NCBI GenBank assembly: GCA_001724025.1
Contig: MEDJ01000020.1
Location: forward strand, 124,001 to 188,000
From: Acidobacteria bacterium SCN 69-37
GTDB lineage: Bacteria > Acidobacteriota > Vicinamibacteria > Vicinamibacterales > SCN-69-37
DNA length: 64,000 nt
Reading direction: 5' to 3'
Shown here one piece after another: positions 29,110 to 32,914 of this stretch. The notes beneath the pieces are model-generated. The model ran no database searches. It saw only the letters and a list, made by a program, of their open reading frames with translations, and was not told the DNA's origin. Both the position numbers and the translations under genes were made by a program. Within the stretch, counting starts at the first letter, position 1. Each line of letters begins with the position of its first letter.

Positions 29110-29235
29110 GCACTTTGGCCCTGAAATCGCCGGCGTGTCCGGTCGAAAGCGCCCAGGTTAGTGTTAGGATGACGTCGCTATGGCACGGGCCGCCGTCGCC
29201 TGCTCGGGCGGGCACCCTAATCGGCAGGAGGTAGT

Positions 29236-29964
29236 GTGTCGCCCATCTACGTTCGACCTGAGCGGGAGCAGGCCGAGCACGATCGCCTGATCCGGTTCCT
29301 CCAGGAAAAGTACAGCCACCGGTTCGAGGCCTTGGCCAACCCGGGCGATGAGCGCGTGGCTCCGCTGAAGATCGCGGCCGTGACGCACTTTCCCGACCTG
29401 GTCCTCCACGAAGACAAGCGGCCGGCCGGTGTCGTCGAGATTGAGACCGCCGCCTCGGTCAACAACCTCGAGACGATGGCGAAGTGGGTCCCGTTCTCGA
29501 AGGCGCGTGTCCCGTTCCATCTCTACGTGCCGGTCCAGGGGTACGAGGCGGCGCTACGGCTGGTCGAGGCCCATCGCGTGAAAGCGGCGGAGATCTGGAC
29601 CTATCGGCCGGCCATGGAGGGATTCGACCTCGTCCGGATGTTTGCCGACCCGGCGTTGCAGGAGGTTCGGGCCGCACGCACCGCGGCCGCGAAGGCAGGG
29701 GGCACGAAGGCTGGAACGGCGACGCCCCGGAAGGTGGCGGCCAGGCCGGCGAAGCCGGAACCGCGGACACGGACCAGCAGACCGGCACGGCCGGTCAGAG
29801 CGGTCAAGAAGGCGACCAAGGCGAGCCCGGCGACTCGATCCAAACCGGCGACGGCGAAGTCCGCGGCCAAGCCAGCGGCTGCGAAACGCGTGGTCCGGCC
29901 CGCGCGTGCGGCGACCAAGGCGGCCCGGGGCAAGAAGACAGCCGGCGCCCGCAGGAGCCGGTAG
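29236..29964 (+). CDS. Nuclease-fold-like protein with histone-H1-like basic tail, unknown function
   Basis: This 242-residue protein has two distinct parts. Residues 1-145 look like a small alpha/beta domain. The order FPDLVLHED (P53-D54), then GVVEIETAASVNNLETMAKW (E68, E70), then FHLYVPVQGYEAALRL resembles the PD-(D/E)XK nuclease core, although the usual Lys after the acidic residue is absent. Residues 148-242 are almost entirely Ala, Lys, Arg, Pro and Thr (for example RAVKKATKASPATRSKPATA), like bacterial histone H1 tails that bind DNA. AGGAGG at 29226-29231 supports the GTG start. The next gene begins six bases after its stop. I do not recognise the exact family; catalysis is a guess. 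Confidence 0.75.
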   Translation: MSPIYVRPEREQAEHDRLIRFLQEKYSHRFEALANPGDERVAPLKIAAVTHFPDLVLHEDKRPAGVVEIETAASVNNLETMAKWVPFSKARVPFHLYVPVQGYEAALRLVEAHRVKAAEIWTYRPAMEGFDLVRMFADPALQEVRAARTAAAKAGGTKAGTATPRKVAARPAKPEPRTRTSRPARPVRAVKKATKASPATRSKPATAKSAAKPAAAKRVVRPARAATKAARGKKTAGARRSR

Positions 29965-29970
29965 CTCGTC

Positions 29971-30810
29971 GTGCCCTTCATTCGCTACACGCGCGACAAG
30001 CGCGGCTATGAAACCACCTACGTCATGCACGGGTACCGGCCCGTGCAGGGGCCACAGCGCACGCGTGTGCTGTACCTGTTCCGCTCGCCCTCGCACGTGC
30101 GGATGGGCCGCCGGCCGCTCGACGAGGAAGCGCGCGAGGCGCTCGAGCACACGCATCCCGATTTGAGCTTCGACTGGACGGTGCTCGGTCGCGAGTCCGA
30201 GTCCGTGCGCGTCGTCGAGGACCGCGAGCCGGGCCGCGCCCGGCGTGGCGGCGCGCGCAGTGCCCGTCCGGCGTCGTCGTCAACGTCCGCGGCGGTCGAC
30301 GATCAATCGCCGCTCGGCCGGGCGCTGGGCAGCGAGACGGCTGCCCGGTTCCGGACGCGCTATCGCGATCTGCTCCAGCGGATCGTGCGCCGGGCCCGGA
30401 CGCCGGAAGAACGCGACAGGCTGACGGAGGCGGCGCAGCGTCTCAATCCTGACGACTGGCCGGATGCCGAGGCGATTCGGGCGCACGCGGAGACCATCGA
30501 ACAGGAATGGGACGCGGTGGCGGCCGAGTTGCCAGCACGGCGTCGCGGCCGTCGCGGGGGACGACGCCGGGAGGGCGGGGCAGACACGCCCGGCTCCGAC
30601 GATGGCGCGGATCGCGGGGCAGACGAGGCCGATCCCTCTGACATAATGGCGGGTGAGGGAGACGTTGATGAACGGCAGTACGATCTGGACCCGGCTGATG
30701 CTGATCCTGCTGGCGGTCCTGGCGCTGACGCCGGTGGCGATCGGGCAGGCGCCGACGACAGGGCAGCAGAACACCACGTTCCGGGCGACGACGAATTTCG
30801 TCCGGACTGA
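29971..30810 (+). CDS. Conserved-looking protein of unknown function with long 3' overlap
   Basis: This 279-residue frame begins MPFIRYTRDKRGYETTYVMH, a well-ordered N-terminal domain of about 80 residues (to SFDWTVLGRESESVRV). It continues with an Arg-rich low-complexity linker and a helical stretch (FRTRYRDLLQRIVRRARTPEERDRL to IEQEWDAVAAEL). The last 75 residues are acidic and Ala/Gly/Asp-rich. I recall similar N-termini in acidobacterial unknowns. There is no stop before 30810, so the last 143 bases overlap the next gene in another frame. The N-terminal part is credible; the tail may be incidental. It lies six bases after the nuclease-like gene, probably in one operon. Confidence 0.7.
   Translation: MPFIRYTRDKRGYETTYVMHGYRPVQGPQRTRVLYLFRSPSHVRMGRRPLDEEAREALEHTHPDLSFDWTVLGRESESVRVVEDREPGRARRGGARSARPASSSTSAAVDDQSPLGRALGSETAARFRTRYRDLLQRIVRRARTPEERDRLTEAAQRLNPDDWPDAEAIRAHAETIEQEWDAVAAELPARRRGRRGGRRREGGADTPGSDDGADRGADEADPSDIMAGEGDVDERQYDLDPADADPAGGPGADAGGDRAGADDRAAEHHVPGDDEFRPD
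30642..30647 (+). promoter_or_regulatory. Candidate internal -10 element before the VWFA gene
   Basis: CATAAT lies inside the upstream reading frame, 20 bases before the VWFA start, and a GAGGGAGA ribosome-binding sequence lies between. The gene could be transcribed on its own. No -35 was identified. Confidence 0.3.
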
Positions 30811-32002
30811 CGTCATCGTCAAAGATCGGCAGGAACGATTCGTTCCCGATCTGAAAGTGGACGAATTCCGCGTCTACGAGGACGGCGTGCTGCAGAACAT
30901 CACGCTGTTCACCCCCTGGATTGGCGGCCGCGCTCTGGGCAACCTGGCGTCGGCCAGCAGCGCCGGTCCGGCGGCGCCGGCCGTCGAAGGCCTGATCCTG
31001 CCCACGGTCCGCCCGAAGCAGGATGCCTCGGGCCGCCTGTTCATCATTTTCATCGACGACCTGCACCTGCAGCCGTCTGAGACGCCGCGCGTCAAGGACC
31101 TGCTCAAGAAGGTGCGCGACACCCTGGTGCACGACAACGACCTCGTCGGGTTCGTGTCGACGGGGACGTCGAGCATCCAGATCGATCCGTCCTACGACTA
31201 CGGCCATCGTCGATTCAACGAGGCGATCGAGAAAGTGATGGGATCGGCCCCGAGCGCCGACGAATTCATCGAGGCGGCCTTGACGGAGGGGGCGCAGGGG
31301 CCGCAGCAGGTCCGGTACAACGCACACGTCGCGTTCAAGACCGCATCCGATCTGCTCGATCAGTTGGCACAGGTGACCGAGCGCCGCAAGGCGTTTGTTT
31401 ACGTCAGCGGCGGCTACCACTTCAACCCGTTCGCGGAGTCGCGCCTGGCGAAGATCAAGGAATTCTACAGTGTGCTCGACGAAGGGCTGACCGAGGAAGA
31501 GAGGACGCAGGATCCGTCGCAGACGCAGGACTCGATCCGCGGATCCGAGTTCTACCAGCGCACGGCGTTTTCGACGGCCGATCTGGTCAACGAAGTCGCG
31601 CAATTGACGCGGGCGGCGCAGCGCGCCAACGTGGCGTTCTACACGATCGATCCACGCGGGCTGATTGCGACGGGCACTGACGCCTCGACGCGCGCGCAGA
31701 TTTCCTACGCGGATTTCCGGGATTTCGTGATGACGCAGATCAGCACGCTGCAGGTGCTAGCCGAGGAAACCGGCGGGTTCGCCCTCGTCAACTCGAACGA
31801 CTTCGACGGGGGGATCCGGCGCATCGACTCGGAGACCAGCGACTTCTACCAGATCGGATACGTCTCGAGTAACCCCGATCCGACGAAGCTGCGGCGGTTC
31901 ATCAAGGTCGAGATCACGCGAGCCGGTCTGCAGGAGCCCAATTACCGGTCCGAGTACACGCTGCCGCGGCCCCCGCGCACGAACACCACGAACAACAAGT
32001 AA
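30668..32002 (+). CDS. Secreted VWFA-related acidobacterial domain protein
   Basis: A 444-residue exported protein of a type expanded in Acidobacteriota. The signal peptide is MNGSTIWTRLMLILLAVLAL, ending near AIGQA. A beta-rich region (FVRTDVIVKDRQERFVPDLKVDEFRVYEDG) leads to a von Willebrand A-like fold beginning LFIIFIDDLHLQPSETP, in place of the usual DxSxS metal site. It then has RKAFVYVSGGYHFNPF and NVAFYTIDPRGLIATG, with the C-terminal GGFALVNSNDFDGGIRRI and a final beta-strand region. Its role is unknown; secretion suggests a surface or periplasmic adhesion task. The start codon lies within the upstream reading frame, and GAGGGAGA precedes it. Confidence 0.9.
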   Translation: MNGSTIWTRLMLILLAVLALTPVAIGQAPTTGQQNTTFRATTNFVRTDVIVKDRQERFVPDLKVDEFRVYEDGVLQNITLFTPWIGGRALGNLASASSAGPAAPAVEGLILPTVRPKQDASGRLFIIFIDDLHLQPSETPRVKDLLKKVRDTLVHDNDLVGFVSTGTSSIQIDPSYDYGHRRFNEAIEKVMGSAPSADEFIEAALTEGAQGPQQVRYNAHVAFKTASDLLDQLAQVTERRKAFVYVSGGYHFNPFAESRLAKIKEFYSVLDEGLTEEERTQDPSQTQDSIRGSEFYQRTAFSTADLVNEVAQLTRAAQRANVAFYTIDPRGLIATGTDASTRAQISYADFRDFVMTQISTLQVLAEETGGFALVNSNDFDGGIRRIDSETSDFYQIGYVSSNPDPTKLRRFIKVEITRAGLQEPNYRSEYTLPRPPRTNTTNNK

Positions 32003-32026: not shown

Positions 32027-32914
32027 TCAGGCGTCGACAGACGCCTTGACCCGCTCGACCGCTTCCTGCAGGTAGTGGGGGTCCATCTCGATCCCGACGA
32101 AGTCGAGGCCGAGCCGGGCGGCGGCAATGGCCGTCGAGCCCAGGCCCATGAAGGGATCGAGCACCACACCGGCGCGGTCGAGGCCGTGCAGGCGCAGGCA
32201 CTGATCCGGCACGCGGGGCGGGAACGAGGCCGGGTGCGGCCGGTCCCGATCGCGGCTCTGGATGGTGTCGTACGGGATGAACCACGTGTTTCCACGGCAC
32301 CGGAGCCCCTCGCCGGCCGACGCCCACCGCTTGATGTTCGATCGATCCTGATACGGTACGCCGACCGCTCGTCTGTCGAGCCGCGTCCGCCCGCCGGGCG
32401 TGAAGTGGAAGATGAACTCGTGGCAGTCGTTGACGAACCGATCGCTGTTGATCGGCTTGTAGTGGCCCACGGCCACGTCCCTGTCGAGTCCGGCGCCCTG
32501 GCCGGCAGCCTCGCGGTCGATGGCAATCGACTTGACCCAGTGAATGGTGTTCTGGAGCTTGAAGAAGCGGCGTGCGACCTGGGCCACTTCGAGCGGGACC
32601 CACGGGTCCGTCGGCTTGGCCCCGACATTGAGGAAGAGGGACGCCTCGGGCTGCATCACGTGCGAGACGGCGCGCAGCCAGCTGTCGCTCCAGTTCAGGT
32701 AGTCCTTGCGGGGCAGGTCGTCCTGATAGCTCCGGTATTTGATGCCGATGTTGTACGGCGGCGACGTGACCACGGTTCCGATCGAGGCCGGCTCGAGCCG
32801 GGGCAGGACCGTGAGACAGTCGCCGAGGTAGAACCGGAGGGTGGCTCGTCCGACGGTCAACTGCGCGCGGGGGACGAGGGGGAAGGCGTGCGGGGAGACA
32901 AGGGCCAGTGCCAT
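32027..32914 (-). CDS. Orphan site-specific DNA methyltransferase (SPPY type, beta-class order)
   Basis: A 295-residue SAM-dependent DNA amino-methyltransferase. The catalytic motif IV is TSPPYNIGIKYRSY (about residues 50-63) and the SAM-binding motif I comes later, as DPFMGLGSTAIAAARLGLDFVGIEMD (about 250-275). That order defines the beta class. The SPPY variant occurs in both N4-cytosine and N6-adenine enzymes, so the target base is unknown. It has no adjacent restriction endonuclease of a recognised type. It is convergent with the VWFA gene with a 24-base gap. A regulatory CcrM-like role or a solitary modification role are both possible. Confidence 0.9.
   Translation of the reverse strand: MALALVSPHAFPLVPRAQLTVGRATLRFYLGDCLTVLPRLEPASIGTVVTSPPYNIGIKYRSYQDDLPRKDYLNWSDSWLRAVSHVMQPEASLFLNVGAKPTDPWVPLEVAQVARRFFKLQNTIHWVKSIAIDREAAGQGAGLDRDVAVGHYKPINSDRFVNDCHEFIFHFTPGGRTRLDRRAVGVPYQDRSNIKRWASAGEGLRCRGNTWFIPYDTIQSRDRDRPHPASFPPRVPDQCLRLHGLDRAGVVLDPFMGLGSTAIAAARLGLDFVGIEMDPHYLQEAVERVKASVDA

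Follow-up and report, generated by a model that had tools for sequence, protein, structure and literature searches.

What does a bacterial protein do that carries the marks of a PD-(D/E)XK nuclease at one end and a histone-H1-like tail at the other? The question arose from an earlier note on a 64,000-nucleotide stretch of the Acidobacteria bacterium SCN 69-37 genome (the window), in which one ORF, here called the target, was read from the letters alone as a DNA-bound nuclease or an inactive DNA-packaging factor. The best reading of the target after the analysis described here is a nucleoid-tethered, metal-dependent housekeeping nuclease, a reading held with somewhat less than even confidence. 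The features of the locus are as follows.

29226..29231, + strand: AGGAGG, likely ribosome-binding site, 4 nt 5' of the GTG, read in the sequence
29236..29964, + strand: target, whole single-copy gene, 242 aa, GTG start, stop codon included
29236..29649, + strand: conserved PD-(D/E)XK-like domain, residues 1-138, with D54, E68 and E70, plus E11 and H15 from helix one (from conservation, invariant residues and predicted elements)
29392..29397, + strand: P53-D54, the first of the two motif parts of the putative active site (invariant, 59/59)
29437..29445, + strand: E68-I69-E70, the second motif part of that putative site, E-x-E replacing E-x-K (E68 and E70 invariant, 59/59)
29455..29496, + strand: S74 to F87, predicted helix following the E-x-E strand, consensus S-V-N-x-L-E-A-x-x-Q-W-x-x-F (from conserved residues)
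29650..29961, + strand: Ala/Lys/Arg/Pro tail with a basic last residue and histone-H1-like composition (from composition)
29971..30810, + strand: d1, 279 aa, of which the N-terminal ~75 are conserved, probable operon partner (from spacing and order-restricted spread)
30653..32002, + strand: VWA-domain protein (TIGR03436), start uncertain, downstream of the target in all loci examined (20/20)
32027..32914, - strand: N6/N4 DNA methyltransferase, a neighbour (PF01555, E 2e-38)

The gene, its spread and its neighbours

The target is a genuine gene, present as a single copy in its own genome, and its start agrees with the M-S-P-I-x-V-R-P conserved among homologues. A scan for promoter and terminator found none. 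With residues 1-145 as the query, a single match per genome was found in 51 of the 60 close-relative genomes, a set that includes the target's own, and a single-sequence search of genome contigs returned L032, from the same genus, as its sole match. A profile built from 45 homologues and run against 396 genomes of the phylum (Acidobacteriota) detected the target in 39, all of the same order (39/42, against 0/4 in the rest of the class and 0/350 elsewhere, that is, 0/354 outside the order). The target is thus restricted to one order within the sampled phylum, and it is an old gene. It is also dispensable, since several near-complete genomes of the order (G032, G058, G305) lack it. No homologue was found in the viral contigs, plasmids and phages searched, as expected for a chromosomal housekeeping gene; on this ground and that of the conserved gene order, an origin from a mobile element or phage was rejected.

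No convincing match to Pfam, NCBIfam, PHROG or PADLOC was obtained with the 45 family members searched. The best scattered values were 0.0033 for PADLOC Csm3 (2/45 members at E ≤ 1) and 0.0065 for PHROG 36530, of unknown function (11/45 at E ≤ 1). The sequence search gave no relative of solved structure in the PDB, and HMMER gave no significant match of the family to any nuclease family. The parts are of known kinds; the libraries and literature searched yielded neither their combination, with its order-wide conservation and its pairing with d1, nor any nuclease with a histone-H1-like tail, which bears out within that scope the remark that no described protein with this layout was known. Order-wide genes that are absent from the rest of a sampled phylum and match no family model usually mark a lineage-specific difference.

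Gene order was compared in 20 loci of 18.5-20 kb, where a divergent arginase gene (14/20) is followed by the target, d1 (15/20), the VWA gene (20/20, always on the strand of the target) and a methyltransferase gene (8/20). The gap between target and d1 is 6 nt in the window. Both genes were read in 46 loci, and in 43 of these the gap ranges from -4 to 59 nt; d1 was lacking in 12 of the 58 loci examined for it, three of which are interrupted by a contig end. A profile of d1 matched 37/42 genomes of the order and 0/354 others, and comparison of the two profile searches placed both genes in 36/42. The two were probably gained together. They are not strictly interdependent, because each can be lost without the other: d1 is missing beside a retained target in G017, G019 and G029, and G032 keeps d1, adjoining the VWA gene, without the target. 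Loci L106 (G032), L107 (G051) and L108 (G059), from one family, all have d1 and no target, a pattern that suggests lineage-specific loss of the target; d1 and the VWA gene stay neighbours in L106 and L107. Five loci (L106, L107, L108, L110, L112) were searched with the profile for a diverged target near d1 or the VWA gene, and none was found. L110 stops at the end of its contig, and in G055, the genome to which it belongs, the target lies on a different contig. Both target and d1 are absent from G058 and G305.

The d1 protein belongs to no known family. Alignment A4 covers 37 of 47 d1 sequences, the ten with extended or different starts being skipped. The conserved N-terminal ~75 aa of d1 run R-D-K-R-G-Y-E ... 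F-D-W; an LNPDxW-like motif occurs in 18/46, and Arg/Lys runs past residue 80 in 37/46. The d1 and VWA ORFs overlap in different frames by up to 158 nt (30653-30810, + strand). Coordinates in L032 and L003 suggest a similar overlap, and L036 has a gap. A 557-aa frame at L109:1361 (+) (G030:C52) has a d1-like start (E 2.4e-6) followed by what appear by eye to be TPR repeats, and the d1 domain possibly belongs to a wider family. Pairing by charge between the basic tail of the target and the acidic tail of d1 was considered and rejected: the d1 tail carries -14 in the window but is neutral or positive in many relatives.

The N-terminal domain and its predicted fold

The N-terminal ~138 aa of the homologues share 39-73% identity with those of the window (alignment A1, 45 of 51 full-length rows). 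Eighteen positions are invariant in 59/59 distinct sequences: M1, R7, P8, E11, Q12, H15, L22, N35, P53, D54, E68, E70, S74, E79, W84, L96, P99 and E119. N76 is kept in 58/59 sequences, and Q83 and F87 in 39/51 and 40/51 rows, respectively. P53, D54, E68 and E70 sit where the earlier note had put them, and not by chance, being invariant in every distinct homologue. D54, E68 and E70, together with E11, look from the alignment like the carboxylate set of an E-x-E enzyme, with the PD...ExE motif apparently intact. BamHI likewise uses a further Glu. The Q83-W84-x-x-F87 consensus after the E-x-E is taken by us to resemble the Q-x-x-x-Y motif of RecB-type nucleases.

The usual Lys is indeed missing, its place at the third motif position being held by Glu in 59/59, but the loss does not imply inactivity. 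Passages of PMC4081073 state that Glu may replace the motif Lys in active nucleases, and passages of PMC1189080 that an acidic side chain may stand in for it in the PD-(D/E)XK superfamily; because Glu is a substitution documented there, the missing Lys is no evidence of inactivity. 'No Lys' in PD-(D/E)XK-like domains should not be taken as 'dead'.

AlphaFold2 was run twice on two sequences, those of the window and of L032, each serving as the query once. The two models were of low confidence (mean pLDDT 53.7 and 55.0; pTM 0.54 and 0.55). Model one has helices at 9-29, 75-84 and 100-112 and strands at 30-32, 55-58, 63-69, 94-99, 117-126 and 129-137, with D54 just ahead of one strand and E68/E70 at or near the end of another. 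Model two has helices at 9-25, 75-84 and 100-112 and shares the later strands, and its early strands differ (45-48, 68-71). In these low-confidence models the succession of secondary-structure elements fits the restriction-endonuclease-like alpha-beta-beta-beta-alpha-beta core, and neither model gave an element order at odds with it. The PD-(D/E)XK strand order claimed from the sequence thus held as far as a compatible element order in both models, at pLDDT 53.7 and 55.0 and with nothing at E ≤ 0.001 in Foldseek for either. With model one, VIA-align ranked PaqCI highest (Z 5.6, rmsd 4.3, 122 aligned), next to a prephenate dehydrogenase (Z 5.5), with BstEII, YaeQ, SfsA, EndoMS and XisH at Z 4.2-4.7; for model two the unrelated prephenate dehydrogenase leads (Z 5.5-5.6 over both models). 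Many PD-(D/E)XK chains appear in the Foldseek and VIA-align lists, none above background. From motif and topology, a restriction-endonuclease-like fold of the domain is likely.

Such a fold need not cut. The target could be a non-catalytic nucleoid protein that uses a restriction-endonuclease-like fold for binding only, its tail coating or bridging DNA, much as RPB5 retains this fold for binding only. Tail composition and an active site without Lys are consistent with that account, as are the RNA polymerase chains among the VIA-align rows (Z 4.4-4.8), which we take to be of the RPB5 type. It is nevertheless unlikely, though it deserves serious weight: the residues proposed to bind metal do not change in any of the 59 sequences (59/59), where many other positions vary, and E-x-E is compatible with catalysis in the passages of PMC4081073 and PMC1189080. 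The alternatives first proposed for this ORF accordingly fared unequally. The two-part layout, its conservation and the PD-(D/E)XK-like signature stood, and the inactive packaging factor became less likely because few residues of the family are conserved as well as the putative catalytic carboxylates.

The domain could also be an alpha/beta fold unrelated to nucleases, with PD...ExE a coincidence, as the Rossmann-type rows in the VIA-align lists and the lack of any significant family or structure match would allow. We judge this improbable in view of the element order, the invariant acidic set and the register shared with XisH (below).

The basic tail, the methyltransferase and the proposed role

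The tail was analyzed in 47 of the 51 full-length rows, leaving out L032 (a duplicate of L003) and L007, L022 and L049 (contig ends). The Ala/Lys/Pro/Arg tail of the original description recurs in all 47 complete homologues, starting at about residue 139 and running to the end over 47-414 aa, so that no complete homologue lacked it. Its medians are 31% K+R, 30% A, 13% P and 3% D+E, with aromatics at most 2%; K+R+A+P+S+T make up 73-96%, and the net charge is +12 to +66. Length varies widely and composition persists. The last residue is K or R in 47/47 (mean 14 and maximum 26 in 1000 shuffles), and the last two are both basic in 42/47 (shuffle maximum 12). Only two weak tail-like matches (E 0.004 and 0.73) were found in the own genome. 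In the four genomes of one genus (L021, L023, L029, L039) the tail is roughly four times as long as usual, with 354-407 aa beyond residue 145. The tail probably holds the protein on the chromosome.

Tails of such composition need not be DNA-selective, and short basic C-terminal ends such as the two basic last residues seen here in 42/47 recall those of ribosomal proteins. An RNA-acting or ribosome-associated nuclease-like protein, its tail binding RNA rather than DNA, would fit these features; the conserved neighbourhood shows no link to translation genes, and we consider this account rather improbable.

The idea that the target is the restriction enzyme belonging to the convergent N6/N4 methyltransferase (32027-32914) is largely refuted and very improbable. 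In its favour, BamHI is an E-x-E enzyme, as the target would be, and the methyltransferase gene lies 2 kb off in the window and nearby in 8/20 loci. Against it, a strong homologue (E below 1e-50) of this particular methyltransferase is missing from 18 of 51 target carriers, G016 and G028 with their single contigs among them; mobile restriction-modification systems do not show such a gene order or such near-universal vertical inheritance; and no copies occur in the phages or plasmids searched. Because of these 18/51 carriers the nearby methyltransferase was rejected as an obligate partner, and the target is not read as half of a restriction-modification pair, although those genomes may have another methyltransferase elsewhere. 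A strong homologue of the nearby one is present in 36/60 relatives, often in the same place, and it is possibly an orphan methyltransferase inherited vertically.

The nucleoid-tethered housekeeping nuclease would work as follows. The target would be a housekeeping protein, encoded on the chromosome and inherited vertically. Its N-terminal domain would be a nuclease of the PD-(D/E)XK type that depends on metal, which E11, D54, E68 and E70 would bind in an E-x-E active site, as in BamHI-type sites. The flexible basic tail would bind DNA non-specifically and so keep the nuclease on the nucleoid near its substrate, which would most likely be a damaged, branched or modified DNA structure and not a fixed sequence. 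The d1 protein would be produced together with the target and may modulate it, and the role would be housekeeping, not defence. The invariant residues make the predicted nuclease testable by single substitutions, and a nuclease held by an H1-like tail, if true, would be a new delivery mode for DNA-processing activity in bacteria. A further proposal, doubtful although conceivable, is that the locus is the signature operon of one order. Its product would be a housekeeping nuclease bound to chromatin by a histone-H1-like tether, with an E-x-E site like that of BamHI and d1 as its dedicated partner, and the two would form a system for DNA maintenance peculiar to this lineage and without a described counterpart.

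Comparison with known systems

XisH appeared in both structural lists, and XisH stretches were therefore aligned and compared with the profile of the 59 sequences. The profiles comprised 17 of the 25 XisH stretches matched in the phylum, 11 of 16 Mrr matches and 7 of 12 Replic_Relax matches; in hhalign, none of Mrr, Replic_Relax and XisH scored above the five families used as controls. In our own profile alignment, for which the control families were cut into windows, XisH had the top forward score of the eight families compared (19.8), followed by an unrelated neighbour gene (19.3), and one reversed methyltransferase control window scored above it (23.7). Column shuffles did as well as XisH in 3/300, 18/1000 and 9/1000 cases, and in 32/100 at the harshest gap setting. 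The register of the alignment was D, E-x-(K/E), S, LE, Q-W/Y, LY. The profile similarity is only suggestive, and the relation is a lead, not membership: the PF08814 model matched none of the 45 members at E ≤ 1, and a search for the XisH family found none in G000.

XisH (PF08814; PDB 2inb, 2okf), listed in passages of PMC1189080 as a known PD-(D/E)XK member, is similar to the target in length and in the helix start H..V..L, and the two stand in register over (Y)xDL, VEV/I-K/E-T/S, S..xLExAxxQ-W/Y and LY(V/L). XisH differs in having E-x-K, where the target family has E-x-E (59/59), and in consisting mostly of short frames (139-185 aa) without such a tail. An xisI-like gene adjoins it in 17/17 loci, whereas d1 is unlike the xisI-like proteins; d1 was rejected as their counterpart, with 202/300 shuffles as good. 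Replic_Relax (PF13814) shows the PD...E-x-D spacing in several copies, but its profile comparison with the target was at chance in two windows (41/300 and 51/300 shuffles as good).

The BamHI-type E-x-E nucleases of the PD-(D/E)XK superfamily resemble the target in (P)D...E-x-E, in one more Glu that is invariant and lies in helix one, and in the predicted order of strands and helices. The target, a nuclease by prediction, differs from them in its long basic tail, its vertical inheritance without an obligate methyltransferase partner and its lack of a significant sequence match to any PD-(D/E)XK member. For the tail, the closest likeness is to AlgP and PhaF, which have bacterial histone-H1-like C-terminal domains and in which a long Lys/Ala/Pro-rich, presumably disordered tail likewise follows another domain; tails of like composition in these proteins are reported or thought, in passages of PMC9239181, to bind DNA. 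The same passages give the N-terminal domain of AlgP as predicted helical, whereas that of the target is predicted to be alpha/beta and carries an acidic motif.
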